From the NCBI RefSeq assembly GCF_016743815.1, contig NZ_CP061035.1, positions 3,779,001-3,843,000 on the forward strand: a stretch of 64,000 nt of DNA, read 5' to 3'. The DNA is from Sphingomonas aliaeris (GTDB lineage Bacteria; Pseudomonadota; Alphaproteobacteria; Sphingomonadales; Sphingomonadaceae). The position numbers and the translations under genes were made by a program. Under the pieces are notes generated by a model, which was given only the letters and a program-made list of their open reading frames with translations, did not search any database and had not been told where the DNA came from. Positions 29,772-61,264 of this stretch are shown here, piece after piece (position 1 is the stretch's first letter; the number at the start of each line of letters is the position of its first letter).

Positions 29772-31550
29772 TCACCCTTCCCGGATCACCTCCAGAAACG
29801 CCTCGCCATAAGCCTCCAGCTTGCGCGCCCCGATCCCGCTGATCTCGCCTAGCGCGCGCAACGTCGACGGCCGGATCGTCGCCATGTCGCGCAGCACAGA
29901 ATCGTGGAAGATCACGTATGGCGGCACGCTCGCCTCCGCCGCCAGCGTCCGCCGCCGTGCACGCAGCGCCTCGAACAAGGGATCGCCGGTTGGGTTCGCC
30001 GCCGTGCCCGCCGAACTGCCCCGCCCACGCGTCCGCCGCTCGCGCTTGGGCGGGACGATCAGCGACACCGTCTCATTCTCTTTCAGGATGGCCCGAGCGC
30101 CGGGACCGAATTCCAGCCCGCCGAAATCGTTCGCTCGCAGCGCATCGCGCAGCAGCAATGCGCGCGCCACCGGCTTGATCAGCGCCTGCTCCTCCGCCGA
30201 CGGCGCGATGCCGAACACGCCCAGCGCCTCGTGCCCGTTCATCAGGCTGCGCTCGCTCGACACGCCGGTCAGCACCTGCTCGATATAACCGATGCCAAAG
30301 CTCTGCCCCGTGCGAAACACCGCGGAGAGGAATTTCCTCGCCACCTCCGTCGCGTCGATCGCGGCGGGCGGGTTCAGGCAATTGTCGCAATTCCCGCAAT
30401 TTTCGGGCGCATCGTCGCCGAAATGCTTCAGCAGGATACGCCTTCGGCACCCCGGCGTCTCGACCAGCGCCCCCAGAGCGGTCAGCCGCGTCCGCTCGCC
30501 CGCCTGTCGCGCGGGTTCGACCTCGCCGATCCGCTGCCGCGCCTTGGCGAAATCCTCCGCGCCCCAGAACATATGCGCCACCGCCGGATCGCCGTCGCGC
30601 CCCGCGCGACCCGTCTCCTGATAATAGGCCTCGATCGATTTGGGCAGGCCGGCATGCGCGACGAAGCGGACGTCCGGCTTGTCGATCCCCATCCCGAACG
30701 CCACCGTGGCGCAGATCACCATGTCCTCGCTCGCGACGAAATCGGCCTGGTTGCGCGCGCGGACATGCGGATCGAGCCCGGCATGATAGGCGCGCGTCGG
30801 CCGACCGGTCTTCGCCAGCGCTTCCGCCATCTTTTCGGTGCCCGCGCGGCTCTGGACATAGACGATCCCCGCGCCCGGCGTCTCCGCGATCAGGTCGGTG
30901 ATCTGGCGGGTCGTATTGTCCTTCGGGCTGATCCGGTACTGGATGTTCGGCCGGTCGAACCCGGCGACGATCATCCCCTCGCGCGGAATTCCCAGTTGGT
31001 CCAAGATGTCGGCGCGCGTATGCTCGTCCGCCGTCGCTGTCAGCGCGAGCCGCGGCACGTCCGGAAAATGGTCGAGCAACGGCCGCAGCAACCGGTAGTC
31101 GGGGCGGAAATCGTGCCCCCATTCCGACACGCAATGCGCCTCGTCGATCGCGAACAGCGCCAGCTTCGCCTGTGACAACAGGTCGCGGAACGCCCCGCCC
31201 GACGCCCGCTCCGGCGCGACGTACAACAGGTCCAGCTCGCCGCGCCGGAACCGCTTGATCGTCTCCATCTGGTCGATATCGACCGACGTCAGCGTTGCCG
31301 CCCGGATCCCGATCGCCGACGCCGCGCGCAACTGGTCGTGCATCAGCGCGATCAGCGGCGACACGACCACGCACGTCCCCTCCAGCGCGACCGAGGGTAG
31401 TTGATAACATAGCGACTTGCCCGCTCCGGTCGGCATCACCGCCAGCGTATTCTCCCCCGCCAGCACGCGGTGGACGACGTCCGCCTGCACCCCGCGAAAC
31501 CCGGGGAAGCCGAAGGTGGATTGCAATACGGGCAGCGGGTCGACGGGCAT
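29772..31550 (-). CDS. recQ: ATP-dependent DNA helicase RecQ
   Basis: This 592-residue RecQ is full length. Helicase domains carry Walker A MPTGAGKSLCYQLPS, the DEAH box AIDEAHCVSEWGHDFRPDY and motif VI YYQETGRAGRDGDPA. The RecQ-Ct zinc site is seen as CRRRILLKHFGDDAPENCGN followed by CDNC. A C-terminal HRDC domain spans about residues 515-590 (LFEALRARRRTLAAEASVPP, LGEISGIGARKLEAYGEAFL). RecQ unwinds DNA 3'-5' in recombination and fork repair. It lies 55 bases downstream of the SLOG-like gene on the same strand. Confidence 0.95.
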   Translation of the reverse strand: MPVDPLPVLQSTFGFPGFRGVQADVVHRVLAGENTLAVMPTGAGKSLCYQLPSVALEGTCVVVSPLIALMHDQLRAASAIGIRAATLTSVDIDQMETIKRFRRGELDLLYVAPERASGGAFRDLLSQAKLALFAIDEAHCVSEWGHDFRPDYRLLRPLLDHFPDVPRLALTATADEHTRADILDQLGIPREGMIVAGFDRPNIQYRISPKDNTTRQITDLIAETPGAGIVYVQSRAGTEKMAEALAKTGRPTRAYHAGLDPHVRARNQADFVASEDMVICATVAFGMGIDKPDVRFVAHAGLPKSIEAYYQETGRAGRDGDPAVAHMFWGAEDFAKARQRIGEVEPARQAGERTRLTALGALVETPGCRRRILLKHFGDDAPENCGNCDNCLNPPAAIDATEVARKFLSAVFRTGQSFGIGYIEQVLTGVSSERSLMNGHEALGVFGIAPSAEEQALIKPVARALLLRDALRANDFGGLEFGPGARAILKENETVSLIVPPKRERRTRGRGSSAGTAANPTGDPLFEALRARRRTLAAEASVPPYVIFHDSVLRDMATIRPSTLRALGEISGIGARKLEAYGEAFLEVIREG

Positions 31551-31605: not shown

Positions 31606-32163
31606 TCAGATTGAAAGCGAGAATTGCTCGTTCGAAAGCGCTGCGATTTTCGCCTTGAGCCGGATCTTGTCCTCCGCCTTTTGACGCGCGTGGTCGGACA
31701 TGTGCCCGATCAGGGTTTCAAGCCCGACCACATCCGAAACGGTGACGAATTTCTTGTTCTTGTTGATGAACACCACCGATTTCTTCTTCTGGCTAAGCAA
31801 CTCGAGTACGTTGCTCAACGTGCCGGTGCTCTTCGTATCCCAGATCATCAGTCCGTAATCCGCCGCCATCGCCATCTCGATGTCCTTCGCCGTGAAGAAG
31901 GCACGCGTACCCGGCGCGGCGCTCGGGAAGACGTTGTGCGTTTCCCAGTCGCCGAGATTGTTGCGCGGCCGGTCTCCGCTGCAATACACCGTGACGAGTG
32001 TCGCGCCGGCGGAGTGCAGGCAGGCCTGAATCGAACTGTCGGCGCCGTCGGCATCACCGACGACGACGTTCCACCCCTTCTCGACGACATTGCGGATGCG
32101 CATCTCAATCAGCGGATTCAATCGACTGATGGCGATCGATCCCGCGATGAAGACGGTCTCCAT
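31606..32163 (-). CDS. Stand-alone SLOG-like (YspA/LOG-type Rossmann) protein, function unknown
   Basis: This 185-residue protein has features of the SLOG superfamily (LOG, DprA and YspA relatives that bind or cleave nucleotides). They are a first strand ending FIAGS (residues 5-9), the glycine-rich loop VVVGDADGADSSIQ (33-46), and DYGLMIWDTKSTGTLSNV (102-119), whose GTxxN resembles the phosphate-binding motif. A Lys-rich C-terminal part (SQKKKSVVFINKNKKFVTV) follows. It starts 3 bases after the phosphoribosyltransferase gene, so the pair is an operon. Base composition is lower in GC than the neighbours (31741-31800 has 25 G/C of 60). The fold call is by eye. Confidence 0.7.
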   Translation of the reverse strand: METVFIAGSIAISRLNPLIEMRIRNVVEKGWNVVVGDADGADSSIQACLHSAGATLVTVYCSGDRPRNNLGDWETHNVFPSAAPGTRAFFTAKDIEMAMAADYGLMIWDTKSTGTLSNVLELLSQKKKSVVFINKNKKFVTVSDVVGLETLIGHMSDHARQKAEDKIRLKAKIAALSNEQFSLSI

Positions 32164-32166
32164 GAT

Positions 32167-32745
32167 CTATCTCCAGGTTACGGCAGCAGCGTAGATGCGG
32201 CCGATCTTTGGATAGGTCCGCAACGCGGCGCAAGCGGCTTCCATCGATGCGCCGGTGTGGAACAGATCGTCCAGCAGCAGGACGTCGTGCTTTGCATCGC
32301 CGGGTATCGCGTCCGTCACCGTGAACTGGCCCGCAAGTATCGCCGCCTTCTCGTCCTTCGAATTCAGGTTTTTCAATTGCGCAGTCGGCGCCTTGGTGAG
32401 CAACGTATCCGAAACCTTGGCGCCGACGATCTTGGCGAGCGCCCATGCCAATTCGCTGACCGGCTGCCTGTCGCGCGGGGTCGAGGCGGGCATCGGAACG
32501 ATCAGGTCGATCCGATCGAACAACGGCCAGATATGGGTCGCGAGTTCCGCCGCGATCGGCGCGACCTGCTTCCAGTCGTTACGATATTTCAGTTGGTACA
32601 GCGCCTCGCCGGGCTTCGACCGAAGGGTATCGAATTTTGGGTGGCCATTCTCGTCGTCGCCAAGATAGGTGCTCGAAATCGTATGCTTGGACAACACGTA
32701 GCCGTCGTCCCAATTCCCGTTGATCGGCTGAATACCGAACTGCAT
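32167..32745 (-). CDS. ComF-like phosphoribosyltransferase
   Basis: This 192-residue protein has the PRPP loop DVLLLDDLFHTGAS (154-167) and the ComF-like segment DLIVPMPASTPRDRQPVSEL (80-99), but lacks the N-terminal zinc finger of ComF. The N-terminal region (YVLSKHTISSTYLGDDENGH) looks unlike ordinary ComF. Type I phosphoribosyltransferases join or release bases using PRPP. GAGGGGATGAG is the ribosome-binding site. It is the first gene of a cassette with the SLOG-like gene, read toward recQ. Substrate unknown. Confidence 0.78.
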   Translation of the reverse strand: MQFGIQPINGNWDDGYVLSKHTISSTYLGDDENGHPKFDTLRSKPGEALYQLKYRNDWKQVAPIAAELATHIWPLFDRIDLIVPMPASTPRDRQPVSELAWALAKIVGAKVSDTLLTKAPTAQLKNLNSKDEKAAILAGQFTVTDAIPGDAKHDVLLLDDLFHTGASMEAACAALRTYPKIGRIYAAAVTWR

Positions 32746-32826
32746 CGCTCATCCCCTCGTCCGTTGAGGCTTGGGCGGGTGAGCCGGGCGAGGGTCGCGG
32801 GCAAGCAGGGTTACGGCCATTCCGGC

Positions 32827-32843
32827 GCAGTATCCGATACTGC
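32827..32843. promoter_or_regulatory. 17-bp perfect palindrome (operator candidate)
   Basis: GCAGTATC-C-GATACTGC lies between the divergent phosphoribosyltransferase and GNAT genes. It is flanked by a second paired element, CCATT (32817-32821) and AATGG (32847-32851). Position and symmetry suggest a repressor site or a hairpin in the GNAT leader. It overlaps no gene. Confidence 0.5.
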
Positions 32844-32876
32844 CGAAATGGCGATTTGCATGCTAAAGGAGTCGTC

Positions 32877-55478: not shown

Positions 55479-58400
55479 TCAGTGGAAGTCGCGCGATTTC
55501 GTGATGATTCGTACGTCGCGCGGATGGCCGTGCCGTGGCGTATCGCGCCCCTGCGCCGTTCCACGCGATCCGTCGCGCGATGAAGTACGCGGCGGGTCGT
55601 CGTGGCGGGAGGGCAGGGGGTGTTCGAAGGCATCGGATCGCAGCAGGCGGATCTTCGCCTTGTCGAGATCGGAGAGGTGGTCGAGCAGGTCGGTCCGATC
55701 GATTACCCGCGTCGCCATCAGGTGGACGACATTGCCCTCCAGCGGACCGGCGCGCTGTACATTGCCCTCCACCTCCATCAGCCGCGCGGCCATCACCTGC
55801 CGGCGGAAACGTTCGAACATCCGTGCCCACAGGACGATGTTGGTCACGCCGCTTTCATCCTCGATCGTGACGAAGATCGCATTGCCGTTGCCGGGGCGTT
55901 GACGCACCAGCACGATTCCCGCCGTGCGGACGCGCAAGCCGTTGCGCGCAGCGGACGTCTCGGCACAGCTCAGCACGCCGTCGGCCTTCAGGATCGCACG
56001 CAGGAACGACATCGGATGTGCCTTCAGCGACAGGCGCGTCATCTGGTAATCCGCGACGACATGCTCGGCCTGCGACATGACCGGAAGCTCGGCATCGGAT
56101 TCCGTCCCCAGTTCGGCCGCCTCCGCCGCGGCGAACAGCGGCAGCGAAGCGGCGGGGGTGCGCCGCACCTCCCACAATGCGTCGCGTCTTCCGAGCCCGA
56201 TCGATCCGAACGCATCCGCATCAGCCAGTAGGCGCAGTGCGCGTTCCGGCAGGCGGGCGCGGCGAGCCAGGCTTTCGATCGAGGTAAAAGCGCCCTCCGC
56301 CCGCGCGATCACCAAGGCGTCCGCCCAAGCCGGCCGGAATCCGGTAATCTGTTGCAGCCCCAGACGTAGTGCGAGATCGGCGGCAGTCGGCTCCAGCGTA
56401 CAATCCCACCGGCTGGCATTCACGTCGATCGCGCGGATCTCGACATCGTGCTCCACCGCGTCGCGCACGATCTGCGCCGGGGCGTAGAAACCCATCGGTT
56501 GCGAATTGAGCAGTGCGCAGGCGAAAACCGCAGGCTGATGGCATTTGATCCAGGACGACACATAGACAAGACGTGCGAACGACAAAGCGTGGCTTTCCGG
56601 AAAGCCGTAGGATCCGAACCCCTTGATCTGTTCGAAGCAGCGCCGCGCGAAATCCTCTTCATAGCCGCGCACGGTCATGCCTCCGATCATCTTCTTCTCG
56701 AAATGCTCCATCCCGCCGACATGGCGGAACGTCGCCATCGCGCGGCGTAGCTGGTTCGCCTCGCCGGGTGTGAACTTCGCCGCGACGATGGCGAGCTTCA
56801 TCACCTGTTCCTGGAACAGCGGCACGCCCTTCGTCTTGTTGAGAAGGTCGTACAATTCACTCGCCGGACCATGTTCGGGGCTGGGTGAGGGATAATAGAC
56901 CTTCTCGGTCCCGGCGCGGCGGCGCAGATAGGGATGCACCATATTGCCCTGAATCGGACCCGGCCGGACGATCGCGACCTGGATCACCAGATCGTAGAGT
57001 TCGCGCGGTTTCAGCCGTGGCAGCATGTTCATCTGCGCACGGCTTTCGACCTGGAACACGCCGATACTGTCGCCCTTGCACAGCATGTCGTAGGTCGCCG
57101 TGTCCTCCTGCGGGATATTGGCGAGATCGTGATCGCCCCTGCCATGCTCGCGCATCAGGTCGAACGCCTTCTGGATGCAGGTCAGCATGCCGAGCGCCAG
57201 AATATCGACCTTCATCAATTGCAGCGCATCGATATCGTCCTTGTCCCATTCGATGAATGTGCGGTCGGCCATCGCGCCGTTATGGATCGGCACGGTTTCG
57301 TCGAGCCGGTCCTCGGTCAGCACGAATCCGCCGACATGCTGCGACAGGTGGCGAGGGAATTTCAGGATTTGTTCGACCAGCATCTTCAGCCGGGCGATTT
57401 CCGGGCTGTGCAGGTCGAAGCCCGTCTCCGCGAAACGGCGTTCCTCGATCGCATCGGCGAAGCTGCCCCATACCGTACTGCTGATCCGGCTCGTCACGTC
57501 CTCGGTCAGGCCGAGCGCCTTGCCCACTTCGCCGACCGCACTGCGTGGCCGGTAATGGATCACCGTCGCGGCGATCCCGGCGCGGTGCCGCCCGTACCGG
57601 TCATAGATATACTGCATGACCAGTTCGCGGCGTTCGTGTTCGAAATCGACATCGATGTCCGGCGGCTCGTCCCGCTCGCTCGACACGAAGCGCGAGAAAA
57701 GCAGGTCGTGCTCCATCGGATCGACCGACGTGACGCCCAGCAGGAAACACACCACCGAATTCGCGGCGGACCCGCGCCCCTGACACAGGATCGGCGGATC
57801 GACTGAGCGGGCATAGCGGACCACGTCGTGCACGGTGAGGAAATAACAGGCATAATTCCGTTCGCGGATCAGCCCGAATTCCTCATACAACAACCGGCAA
57901 AGCTTACCCGGAAGCCCCTCCGGATAGCGTTCCACCGCCGCGAGCAGGACAAGATGCTGCAGCCAGTCCTGCGGATCGTAACCGTCGGGCACGGGTTCGT
58001 GCGGATATTCGTATTTCAGATCGTCGAGCCTAAAGTCGATCCGGTCGAGAAAGGCGATCGTCGCTGCCACTGCCGATGGACGATCCTCGAACAGGCGAAG
58101 CATTTCGTCGCCCGATTTCAGATAACGCTCCGCATTCGGCCGCAGGATGCGACCGGCCTGCTGTACCTTCACGCCCGCACGAATGCAGGTGAGGATATCG
58201 TGTAGCGGGCGGGCATCGGGACCGGCATACAAGGCGTCGCACGTGGCGATCACCGGCACGCCGGCGTCGTCCGCGATCCGGCACAGCCCGCTCAACCGGC
58301 GCCGGTCCGATCCCTGGAACGGCATCGTCGCGCCCAGCCAGACGCGGTCCGGTGCGGCGCGTCTCAATCGTGCGAGCGTGGTCGCCAGATCGCCTGTATT

Positions 58401-59048
58401 AGGCCGCGCCTGCCAGTATCGCGGCTGATCCGGCGCGATCGTCTCGGCACCGGGCAGCGCCACGACGTTCGGAGCGGGCTCCTGCGCATCCCGTATTTCC
58501 TGCGTGTTCCGTCCGGGCCTGTTTTCTGCCGCCATCGCGCCGTTCTCGGCAGGATCGAAGCTGCTTTCGGGCATTACGATCAACAGCAGGTCCTCGAGAT
58601 GCGCGAACAGGTCGGCAATCTCCAGCAGGCATCCCCCTTTCAACGCGCGCCCGTTCCCGACCGTCAGCAGGCGAGTCAGCCGGCCCCACCCGTAGCGCGT
58701 GGCCGGATAGGCGACGATGTCCGGCGTGCCGTCAGCGAATACCAGGCGCGCGCCCGAGACGACGCGCAGGTCCGTCTCGCACGCTGCATGTTCCTCGGGC
58801 GTCAGTATCACCGGTTCGCCGCGCCGTTCTTTATCGGCAAGCCAAGCCTCGCGCGCCTTGTCCGGTGCATCGCGAAGCGCAACCCAGGCGCGCACGACCC
58901 CCGCCACCGTATTGCGATCCGCGATGCCGATGCCGCGCAGCCCCTGCGCGACCGCCTGCGCGACCATGTCGCTCGGATGCGATGCACCGTGCAGGAACGA
59001 ATAGTTGGTGGCGGCGGCCAGTTCGGCGAAGGGCGTGCCCGTCGTCAT
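55479..59048 (-). CDS. dnaE2: Error-prone DNA polymerase III alpha subunit homologue (ImuC/DnaE2)
   Basis: This 1189-residue DnaE2 has an N-terminal PHP domain (FAELAAATNYSFLHGASHPS, GIGIADRNTVAGVVRAW), polymerase acidic residues in ERDEPPDIDVDFEHERRELV and VDILALGMLTCIQKAFDLM, and a C-terminal OB domain (GIVLVRQRPGNGNAIFVTIE). It performs translesion synthesis with ImuA and ImuB after DNA damage. The start overlaps the imuB stop (ATGA). The shorter length and absence of the DnaE1 C-terminus separate it from the replicative enzyme. Confidence 0.95.
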   Translation of the reverse strand: MTTGTPFAELAAATNYSFLHGASHPSDMVAQAVAQGLRGIGIADRNTVAGVVRAWVALRDAPDKAREAWLADKERRGEPVILTPEEHAACETDLRVVSGARLVFADGTPDIVAYPATRYGWGRLTRLLTVGNGRALKGGCLLEIADLFAHLEDLLLIVMPESSFDPAENGAMAAENRPGRNTQEIRDAQEPAPNVVALPGAETIAPDQPRYWQARPNTGDLATTLARLRRAAPDRVWLGATMPFQGSDRRRLSGLCRIADDAGVPVIATCDALYAGPDARPLHDILTCIRAGVKVQQAGRILRPNAERYLKSGDEMLRLFEDRPSAVAATIAFLDRIDFRLDDLKYEYPHEPVPDGYDPQDWLQHLVLLAAVERYPEGLPGKLCRLLYEEFGLIRERNYACYFLTVHDVVRYARSVDPPILCQGRGSAANSVVCFLLGVTSVDPMEHDLLFSRFVSSERDEPPDIDVDFEHERRELVMQYIYDRYGRHRAGIAATVIHYRPRSAVGEVGKALGLTEDVTSRISSTVWGSFADAIEERRFAETGFDLHSPEIARLKMLVEQILKFPRHLSQHVGGFVLTEDRLDETVPIHNGAMADRTFIEWDKDDIDALQLMKVDILALGMLTCIQKAFDLMREHGRGDHDLANIPQEDTATYDMLCKGDSIGVFQVESRAQMNMLPRLKPRELYDLVIQVAIVRPGPIQGNMVHPYLRRRAGTEKVYYPSPSPEHGPASELYDLLNKTKGVPLFQEQVMKLAIVAAKFTPGEANQLRRAMATFRHVGGMEHFEKKMIGGMTVRGYEEDFARRCFEQIKGFGSYGFPESHALSFARLVYVSSWIKCHQPAVFACALLNSQPMGFYAPAQIVRDAVEHDVEIRAIDVNASRWDCTLEPTAADLALRLGLQQITGFRPAWADALVIARAEGAFTSIESLARRARLPERALRLLADADAFGSIGLGRRDALWEVRRTPAASLPLFAAAEAAELGTESDAELPVMSQAEHVVADYQMTRLSLKAHPMSFLRAILKADGVLSCAETSAARNGLRVRTAGIVLVRQRPGNGNAIFVTIEDESGVTNIVLWARMFERFRRQVMAARLMEVEGNVQRAGPLEGNVVHLMATRVIDRTDLLDHLSDLDKAKIRLLRSDAFEHPLPSRHDDPPRTSSRDGSRGTAQGRDTPRHGHPRDVRIITKSRDFH

Positions 59049-60586
59049 GCGAACAGGCCGTGGACATACCATCCGGGCGCCGCACGTTCCGTGCCGTACA
59101 GACCGTGGCGGAACACCCAGAAACGCCGGCCACGCGCATCTTCTATACGGTAATAATCGCGCGTCGGCCGGGTCGGGCCATCATGCCACCATTCGGCGGC
59201 GATGCGTTCCGGCCCTTCGAAACGCGTGACGTCGTGCAGCGTACGGCGCCAGCGGAATTGCCGCGGCGGGCCGTCCGGCACCTCTGCCGTGACCTGGATC
59301 GGCTGCGGCGGATCAAACAGGTGCAGCGGGCGTGACGGCGGTTCGCCGGGTGTCGGCGCCTCCCATGTCGTGGCGACCGTTTCGACCGCGGGCAGCGCGA
59401 GCACCGCCTGTTCGGGAATGTGCGTGTCCTGCGCGCGCAACCGGCGGAAGCGTCCGCGACCCAGCCGAGTACTTAACCGATCGATCAATGTCGCCAACTC
59501 GCCCTCCGCGACCGCGCCGCCTTCCAGCTGCAATTGCGTCGGCGCGAGCGGACCCAGCGTCGGTACGCTCAGGCGGACCATGTCGAAGCCAAAGCCCGGA
59601 TCGATCGGATCCGCCAATCCCTCGATCCGTTCCTCGAACAGGCGGATGACGACTTTCGGATCGCGCACTTCCAGGCTCGTCTCGACGACAAGATCGACCG
59701 CCAGTCCGTCGCTGCGAAACAATCGCGCGGCGAATTTGCGTCCGCCCTGATGCCGCTCGGCCATCGTCTCCGCAGCCTCGCACGCCAGCGATTCGAGGAT
59801 GTCGAGCGCGGCGGCGGTCTGCGTCAACGGTTCGGCAAGCCGCCGTTCGACCGTCAATGCAGGCTCCGTCCGGCGCGGTACGATGCGGCTGTCCGACTTG
59901 CCGGTCAGCCGAGCGAGCGACGCGACCATCGCATCGCCGAACCGCGCGGCGAGTGGAGCGCTGGAGCGGCCCGCCAGATCGCCGATCGTCTTCAGTCCCG
60001 CGCGGCGCAGAGCCAGTTCGGTATCGGGGTCCAGCCGCAATGCGACGACGCCAAGCCGCCGCACCGCCGCGGCCTCGTCGGGCGCGGGCATTGTCTGGAA
60101 CCGGGCCAGCGCCTGTGCCGCCTCGGGCGTGCGGGCCAGCGCGTGCCGTGCCTGCACGCCAAACGCCGCCAGCCGTCGTTCCACGTCTGCGGCCAGATCG
60201 TCTTCGGTCCATCCCGCATGCATGCAGCCCGTGATGTCGAGCGTCAGCCCGTCCATCCCGTCGATCGCAACCAGCGGGGTATAGCGATCGCATCCCTCCG
60301 CAATGCGCTCCAGCAGCGCATCGTCTGCGGCAGGATCGGCTTCGATCGCGGCCAGTTCGGGCACGCGCGCGCGGGCATCTGCCAGCGCCATGCCAGCGTC
60401 GATGCCCAGCGCCTGCGCCGCGCGATCGACCGCCACCAGCCGCATCGCACCGCGCTGTTTCTCGACGAAGACATAGGGGTTATCCGGCGCGCCGTGCCGC
60501 GCCAGCCGATCCGCTGCCAGGAACGGGAACCACAGCGCCAGAAAGCGCCGCCTGATATCCTGCCGACCGGAAGATTGCCTCGTCAC
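59045..60586 (-). CDS. imuB: Y-family polymerase-like protein ImuB
   Basis: This 513-residue protein follows the Y-family plan (RRRFLALWFPFLAADRLARH, EGCDRYTPLVAIDGMDGLTL, IGDLAGRSSAPLAARFGDAM) but lacks the catalytic acidic residues: the usual DMD near the N-terminus is ALWFPF and the SVDE motif is degenerate (LDITGC). This matches ImuB, a non-catalytic scaffold that brings DnaE2 to the clamp. The GTG at 60586 is the only plausible start and overlaps the 3' end of imuA by about 107 bases. Confidence 0.92.
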   Translation of the reverse strand: MTRQSSGRQDIRRRFLALWFPFLAADRLARHGAPDNPYVFVEKQRGAMRLVAVDRAAQALGIDAGMALADARARVPELAAIEADPAADDALLERIAEGCDRYTPLVAIDGMDGLTLDITGCMHAGWTEDDLAADVERRLAAFGVQARHALARTPEAAQALARFQTMPAPDEAAAVRRLGVVALRLDPDTELALRRAGLKTIGDLAGRSSAPLAARFGDAMVASLARLTGKSDSRIVPRRTEPALTVERRLAEPLTQTAAALDILESLACEAAETMAERHQGGRKFAARLFRSDGLAVDLVVETSLEVRDPKVVIRLFEERIEGLADPIDPGFGFDMVRLSVPTLGPLAPTQLQLEGGAVAEGELATLIDRLSTRLGRGRFRRLRAQDTHIPEQAVLALPAVETVATTWEAPTPGEPPSRPLHLFDPPQPIQVTAEVPDGPPRQFRWRRTLHDVTRFEGPERIAAEWWHDGPTRPTRDYYRIEDARGRRFWVFRHGLYGTERAAPGWYVHGLFA

Positions 60587-61264
60587 GATCCCACTCCACA
60601 CACCAGCGTCCGCCGGCCTTTCCGCCGCGTCGTCGCGACAATTCCACATCCAGCGTCGGAAACCCCGGCGCGTTCGCCGCCAGCGGCGATGCCGCCGCCG
60701 ACCGTATTTGCCACCGCGTATGCGCCGCACTGGGCGATGGTTCGGCGAGCACGCGCAGCATCAGCGCCGTCACGCCAGAGGCTTCCGCCGCCACCGCCAG
60801 TCGCCGGCTGGCGGTCAGGTCCAGCGCCCGGGGGAGCGCCACAGTTCGATCACCACGATCCCGGCATCCGCGCACCGCACGACCTCCGCCGCGACTCGCA
60901 GCACCGAAAGCGCATCGGGCAGCAACCCGACGATCAGATCGGTGCCGCGCAGATCCAGCTGTACCAGACCGGGCATGTGCAGCGCGCCGCCGGCCCCCTG
61001 CACGCCCTCCTCCTTCAGCCACACGACCGATCCCGTACCCCCGCGCCGTACGATCATTGCCGCAAATCCGGCGGCGCTGCTCGCATCCTCCGCATCGGCC
61101 GCGAAGATTTCATGCAGCCGCCCCCGCTCCAGCCCGCCCCCAAGGCTGGCATCGATCCCGGCATGACCCAACACTGTGACGCCCGACGTTTCCGTCTGGC
61201 GCCGCCCCTCGATTTGAGAGACACGCTGCCTGAGCGCCGTAAAAGCTATGACCGAATCGCGCAT
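60480..61264 (-). CDS. imuA: SOS mutagenesis protein ImuA, interrupted by a one-base frameshift
   Basis: ImuA is a RecA-like fold protein needed for DnaE2-dependent mutagenesis. Frame one (61264 to a stop at 60815) gives MRDSVIAFTALRQRVSQIEG through DAGIVVIELWRSP. Frame two (to 60480) gives RALDLTASRRLAVAAEASGV, then TLDVELSRRRGGKAGGRWCV and EWDRDEA. Adding one C to the coding-strand C5 run (60830-60834) joins them as WRSPRALDLTASRR and yields 261 residues. The ATG at 61264 is chosen because a perfect LexA box lies just before it. A sequencing error or a real loss of function are both possible. Confidence 0.85.
60830..60834 (-). other. imuA: Frameshift site in imuA (C5 run on the coding strand)
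   Basis: Five C where six would keep the frame. The stop TGA at 60815-60817 follows within a few codons when the sequence is read literally. Confidence 0.75.

Follow-up and report, generated by a model that had tools for sequence, protein, structure and literature searches.

Background

The closest described relatives of the gene pair studied herein are systems in which a phosphoribosyltransferase (PRTase) meets a partner of the DprA or SLOG kind, and what is said of them below follows the available portions of the cited papers. In RqlHI, toxicity of the RecQ-like helicase RqlH requires its PRTase domain, which is not toxic by itself, and the DprA-like RqlI binds and restrains RqlH (PMC4670107); a DprA and PRTase pair from a P2 hotspot protects against T7 and lambda, and DprA homologues are named as the antitoxins in shosTA, syrTA and rqlHI (PMC9122126). 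According to a review statement, ShosT, both a PRTase and a pyrophosphatase, disturbs purine metabolism and ShosA binds DNA (PMC12593503), and a PRTase is among the validated systems in the figure 4 legend of the DefensePredictor work (PMC13092281). The pair examined here lies at 31606-32745 on the minus strand of a 64,000-nucleotide stretch of Sphingomonas aliaeris (contig NZ_CP061035.1, positions 3,779,001 to 3,843,000; this whole stretch is called the window), where the gene of a ComF-like PRTase (PRT) is followed by that of a SLOG-fold protein (SLOG). With a probability of roughly 70%, this conserved pair is a toxin-antitoxin module with PRT as the predicted toxin and SLOG as the predicted antitoxin, probably carried as phage-defence and element-keeping cargo; PRT is taken as the toxin because of the RqlHI and ShosTA-type precedents, as far as those portions describe them.

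Conservation and spread of the pair

The two genes are adjacent on the minus strand (PRT at 32167-32745, SLOG at 31606-32163, with 3 bases at 32164-32166 between them), just as the original prediction had described, and the outcome that it had named as a refutation, homologues never neighbouring outside this strain, did not occur. Protein searches at an expectation value (E) of 1e-3 gave 607 PRT and 1575 SLOG matches, each list reaching down to its 120th-best hit; canonical ComF proteins may be among the PRT matches further down. When GTDB genomes were scanned with the PRT alignment, all 75 genome loci obtained had SLOG directly after PRT and on its strand (as a fragment in L115), and it followed PRT in 21 of 21 viral-contig loci as well (PRT being partial in L265). 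Since the pairing recurs in 75 of 75, it is more than chance, and two short adjacent same-strand genes that are found together show a trait of type II toxin-antitoxin systems. Moreover, the distance matrices of PRT and SLOG correlate at 0.92 with none of 2000 permutations as high, a correlation that linkage alone would give likewise.

The pair is also found on mobile elements. Among 72,556 plasmid records, 61 hold PRT and 98 hold SLOG. A Klebsiella-type pair is on plasmids of 5 of 5,426 E. coli genomes, and ParDE, ParA and restriction-modification genes neighbour the pair on an E. coli plasmid. Another pair type was matched over most of the query in 8 E. coli genomes, seven times in the chromosome, and the two chromosomal copies that were opened belong to prophages, where a VgrG/Pvc8-type gene stands on one side of the pair and ogr on the other (L243 8789-9936 and L244 8789-9936); by gene order we take these prophages to be P2-like. 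The annotated phage records of INPHARED gave no match to the window SLOG or to an E. coli PRT. Within Sphingomonas the spread is patchy, with a SLOG match in 14 of 295 genomes and PRT beside it in 10 of the 14. An enzyme pair for nucleotide salvage or repair with no role in conflict would agree with the intact phosphoribosyl pyrophosphate (PRPP) loop of PRT and the LOG-like fold of SLOG, but such patchiness, the carriage on plasmids and prophages and the signs of allele swapping described below speak against it, and we regard it as very improbable.

The toxin-antitoxin reading is further consistent with which of the partners is found incomplete. Among 91 loci, from which L041 was omitted as a copy of L177 and in which L056 and L155 with their identical rows were treated as one genome, 82 carry both genes in full, that is, with more than 150 PRT and more than 120 SLOG model positions. 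PRT is partial in the other nine (one of which, L178, is cut by a contig end) and SLOG is kept in eight of these nine, while a full PRT with a partial SLOG was seen in none of the 91. Judged from such sequence remains, a partial PRT with its SLOG kept may be an indirect sign of PRT as the toxin.

The two proteins

PRT (192 amino acids) was assigned from its PRPP loop and from profile and fold comparisons. The loop reads LLLDDLFHTGAS at residues 156-167, and D159, D160 and G165 are invariant across 60 PRT rows. Since the protein has a single Cys (residue 172), it is without the ComF zinc finger, and a GxWDxGYALxKH stretch stands at its N-terminus instead; an intact loop without the zinc finger is what had been read from the letters, and the motifs quoted at that time (VVVGDADGAD, WDTKSTGT and the loop) are present in the translations. 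The predicted model has a ComF-type PRTase fold, and PRT is closer to one canonical ComF (E 6.7e-12) than to one PsyrT (E 4.1e-7 by hhalign, over the PRTase part). No Pfam or NCBIfam family came above cut-off (PF00156 0.0069; comF 0.014), and a PDB sequence search with the window PRT alone gave no match; the PRT profile gave 51 PDB matches, mostly general PRTases with a best value of 8.8e-4, and generic PRTases were on top in a viral fold search too. In the family-level genomes, PRT matched in 91 of 249, the best hits being at E 1.5e-10 or weaker except in G000, G115 and the split copy in G024, and the weak family-level match that was read (L005) is a canonical ComF. By eye, a separate ComF-like frame with Cys pairs lies elsewhere in the genome (L160). 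Two interrupted copies were also seen: in L154, from G024, PRT is in two pieces about 0.8 kb apart and SLOG is matched over 164 of 183 positions, and on the Enterobacter plasmid L116 (4004-5986) an IS3 element splits PRT next to an intact SLOG.

SLOG (185 amino acids), a predicted antitoxin or sensor, has in the predicted model a Rossmannoid fold over about residues 1-150, followed by a C-terminal helical hairpin at residues 157-184. The SLOG fold of the model upholds the family assignment formerly made by eye; no SLOG family, YspA/YAcAr included, is among the Pfam matches of the protein up to E 1. No Pfam or NCBIfam family came above cut-off (best TrkA_N, 0.005), a PDB search with the SLOG profile gave four matches, DprA among them, all at E about 1, and structure comparison could not separate the SLOG subfamilies. 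The catalytic motif of LOG phosphoribohydrolases is PGGxGTxxE, with the glutamate in GTxxE; the SLOG motif is KSTGTLSN, with N118 invariant in 55 rows, and this Asn in place of the LOG-type Glu speaks against base cleavage by SLOG. Eleven examined loci hold unpaired SLOG paralogues with no PRT match (L148-L153, L158, L186-L189), nine of which end near residue 160 and so are without the hairpin, the exceptions being L158, which extends further, and L148, whose match stops early. Because nine of the eleven are without it, the hairpin may be what holds PRT. The unpaired SLOG of L158, on a Mesorhizobium plasmid, lies near genes of DUF2493 and DUF736.

DNA-binding domains on SLOG and the neighbouring genes

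Of 78 SLOG frames, 19 have a C-terminal helix-turn-helix of the PF13744 kind; as L002 repeats L056, these make up 18 of the 75 genome loci. On a 70-row tree, made from 82 rows minus twelve near-identical Pseudomonas rows, the 19 helix-turn-helix rows need one change relative to the other labelled rows, and the unlabelled L045 and L072 fall among them. In L045 the helix-turn-helix is a separate downstream frame, and in L065 and L078 it lies just upstream of PRT. Moreover in a distant branch with Agrobacterium and Xanthomonas plasmids and a Sphingomonas genome, the three members scanned have on SLOG the family TIGR02684, named 'addiction module antidote'. The remaining SLOG frames, that of the window included, have no helix-turn-helix of the PF13744 kind; a DNA-binding antitoxin domain is missing from some toxin-antitoxin systems.

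From 43 loci 165 neighbouring open reading frames were gathered, and 115 of them were scanned, with the 25 commonest families per list and no control set. Defence matches among the 115 include HamB (2), SngC (2), BrxHI (1), PDC-S06 (1), type IV restriction enzymes (3) and S_4TM (1), and the matches to mobility and phage genes include phage integrase (3), capsid (3), type IV secretion coupling protein (2) and NikA (2). No further family is in more than 5 of the 115, and thus no shared effector is seen; no reverse transcriptase, for which no dedicated search was made, is among the 25 commonest neighbour families.

These data bear on the possibility of a two-gene signalling defence without a constitutive toxin, in which PRT would make a PRPP-derived nucleotide signal on infection and SLOG would bind or cleave it. 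The consulted part of one paper describes SLOG domains as nucleotide sensors or hydrolases (PMC9503650), PRTases are proposed as nucleotide makers of the Ter system in an excerpt of another (PMC5512222), and both the defence genes among the neighbours and the Rossmannoid fold of SLOG would fit. However, the antitoxin-type DNA-binding fusions on SLOG in two branches and the more frequent incompleteness of PRT fit a toxin-antitoxin module better, a shared effector is not seen among the neighbours, and the invariant Asn118 disfavours base cleavage, so that signalling of this kind seems unlikely.

The recQ neighbourhood in Sphingomonas

In the window, a chromosomal recQ (29772-31550, minus strand; DEAD, Helicase_C, RecQ_Zn_bind, RQC and HRDC by domain scan) begins 55 bases past the end of SLOG on the same strand, and we place it outside the module as a neighbour. 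Eight of the ten Sphingomonas pairs are of the window's kind, including one at a contig end (G404), and all seven assessable loci of this kind lie in the interval from an ATP-binding cassette (ABC) transporter to recQ. Could the pair then be a DNA-processing module with the adjacent RecQ, in effect a split form of RqlHI, that is, of helicase, PRTase and DprA-like protein? Besides this closeness to recQ, it would agree with RqlH being a RecQ-like helicase with a PRTase domain, as the accessible text of its paper has it (PMC4670107), and with the hhalign match of PRT to the PRTase part of a PsyrT protein. On the other side, RecQ is beside the pair in only 1 of 75 genome loci, the Sphingomonas locus L041, and in none of the 74 others within the flanks examined, some of them short. 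The distant-branch Sphingomonas pairs L184 and L185 have no recQ, GNAT or ABC flanks within the 11 kb taken. The order relative to the GNAT gene varies among the seven recQ-side loci: two have GNAT between the pair and recQ, and a third has up to 3 kb there. RecQ was matched in 101 of 101 genus genomes searched (weakly in G266), against SLOG in 14 of 295. Finally, the seven form one clade (85 in the Shimodaira-Hasegawa-like approximate likelihood-ratio test, not starred), so a single event can explain all of them. A split RqlHI is accordingly quite improbable, and a partnership with RecQ as the general function was rejected on the rarity of the recQ adjacency and the single clade. The functional reading of the original prediction is thus supported in part: its defence side is favoured, work with RecQ is not.

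One insertion into a variable slot, followed by descent, is the best reading of the recQ adjacency. A further 29 recQ loci of the genus were examined; six show the empty site, with GNAT and recQ no more than 100 bp apart, and others have different genes. The interval from the ABC transporter to recQ, as seen in L182 and L190-L209, is such a variable slot: it reaches about 5 kb, its changing contents look mostly ordinary, and it is empty in several genomes.

The copies in this slot have diverged more than their flanks. In three comparisons, the synonymous divergence of SLOG and PRT was 0.85 and 0.90 against 0.55 and 0.63 for recQ and ABC, 1.95 and 1.45 against 0.43 and 0.39, and 0.92 and 1.38 against 0.29 and 0.31. 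As drawn from the window, L177, L179, L180, L181 and L183, the pair thus stands at 1.3 to 5 times its flanking genes. The ratio of nonsynonymous to synonymous divergence of PRT is near 0.1-0.2, which indicates genes kept functional. Such an excess over recQ and ABC in synonymous divergence suggests that the Sphingomonas copies have been replaced in place by other alleles; lower codon constraint in the pair may be another source of the excess. Plain fast evolution in place was considered and is less likely, given synonymous divergence above the flanks in all three pairs.

Other features of the locus

The junction of the two genes (32164-32175, minus strand), read directly, has the PRT stop TAG, the 3-base gap and the SLOG start ATG in ACCTGGAGATAGATCATG, with a ribosome-binding-like GGAG stretch inside the PRT 3' end ahead of the SLOG start; from this arrangement PRT and SLOG would be translationally coupled. 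At 0.588, the GC content of the pair lies below the 0.649 of the whole window, in agreement with the lower GC noted before, and values as low occur in 0.16% of 1140-bp segments taken at steps of 100 bases; the GC at third codon positions, 0.78-0.80, is near the 0.80-0.87 of six neighbouring genes. Upstream of PRT lies the divergently oriented GNAT gene, and the intergenic region between them (32746-32876) has an inverted repeat at 32816-32852, near-perfect with a small bulge, which from the sequence is a putative operator. Because the nearest relative, L177, does not conserve the repeat, the idea of a conserved operator was rejected. No sigma-70-type promoter or terminator was found at the locus. 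Farther away, at 55479-60730 on the minus strand, a DnaE2-like polymerase (1197 amino acids) adjoins an ImuB-like protein (561 amino acids), by eye an SOS mutagenesis cassette.

Proposed mechanism and its meaning

The order of PRT then SLOG, the tiny gap, the invariant acidic pair, the predicted folds, the spread on plasmids and prophages, the SLOG fusions and PRT as the incomplete partner (8 of 9) are observed, and by analogy with the described systems we infer toxicity, neutralisation by contact, a trigger, and damage to the nucleotide pool or DNA. SLOG would bind and restrain PRT, perhaps via the C-terminal hairpin, until a trigger releases it; phage infection, for instance, would be sensed through a nucleotide or a DNA ligand that enters the SLOG pocket. 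The released PRT would then draw on PRPP, either upsetting the nucleotide pool or modifying a base or a DNA end, with DNA damage and growth arrest as the outcome; such effects are reported or proposed for ShosT and RqlH. As the window copy is without a helix-turn-helix, its control would go through translational coupling and protein contact.

If the toxin-antitoxin reading is true, the pair is a smaller form of the theme of a PRTase with a DprA/SLOG-like antitoxin, without the helicase of RqlHI or the extra length of ShosTA, and it makes testable how a ComF-type PRTase kills the cell and what a SLOG antitoxin senses. It is also a warning for annotation, as 'ComF family protein' genes that stand next to a SLOG gene, whether on a plasmid, a prophage or a chromosome, are unlikely to be competence genes. 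More tentatively, the pair might be a third architecture of toxin-antitoxin immunity by PRTase and SLOG proteins, minimal and broadly mobile: a bare ComF-type PRTase as the toxin and, as the antitoxin, a bare SLOG protein that itself senses a nucleotide made on infection (the DprA-like partners sense DNA), with DNA-binding domains gained twice and, beside recQ in Sphingomonas, an allele swapped in place.

Comparison with known systems

In the literature searched, at the level of listings, some of them cut short, and with the founding SLOG survey outside its coverage, no paper on this exact pair was found; the validated PRTase system of DefensePredictor (PMC13092281) calls for caution here as well. 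Its general likeness is easily stated: PRT shares the ComF-type PRTase fold with ComF/ComFC, but differs by the missing zinc finger, the GxWDxGYALxKH N-terminus and the SLOG gene next to it, and SLOG shares the Rossmannoid fold of its superfamily (DprA, LOG, YpsA, molybdopterin-carrier proteins), but has a C-terminal helical hairpin, no Pfam family above cut-off and, unlike LOG, the invariant Asn118 for the catalytic Glu. Type III-A retrons also have a PRTase effector in a defence system, and the PADLOC model PRTase_III-A matched 1 of 60 PRT rows (L109, 1.8e-8) and a Listeria plasmid PRT (7.5e-6), but the conserved unit here is PRT with SLOG.

ShosTA is alike as an operon-like two-gene pair of a PRTase and a DprA/SLOG-fold protein, and in Foldseek ShosA is the top match of the SLOG model and ShosT chains rank 5 and 8 for PRT. 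It differs in size, the ShosT and ShosA chains having 412 and 308 residues against 192 and 185, and in the PADLOC ShosA model, which has no match to the window SLOG and matches 3 of 55 family rows, the best at E 0.0025. The ShosT match of PRT (9.9e-8) is not specific, with short ShosT model matches in 13 of 14 control genomes; the long ShosT model is uninformative, as it matched none of 289 class genomes and no control genome.

With RqlHI and PsyrTA, the likeness is a PRTase domain that toxicity of RqlHI needs and a partner encoded alongside, as far as the source at hand goes (PMC4670107). At E 1e-3 or better the PsyrT model picks up all 60 PRT rows of the family, with the match in its C-terminal part for those whose range was shown, though canonical ComF controls match too; since these controls match the same models, the PADLOC ShosT and PsyrT matches were rejected as proof of membership. 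PsyrT itself is full length in 3 of 289 class genomes. As to the partner, SLOG with 185 amino acids differs from the 325 and 530 amino acids of two proteins that follow PsyrT; hhalign against these two single sequences gave E 0.046 and 0.12, neither of them significant, and the PADLOC PsyrA model has no match to the window SLOG and matches 2 of 55 family rows weakly. In those systems the toxin is fused to a RecQ-like helicase, whereas PRT has 192 amino acids without helicase against a PsyrT model of 689 positions, and the recQ beside the pair is a separate RecQ with RQC and HRDC, not a PRT fusion. To sum up, the pair is outside RqlHI and PsyrTA on the helicase fusion and outside ShosTA on size and models.
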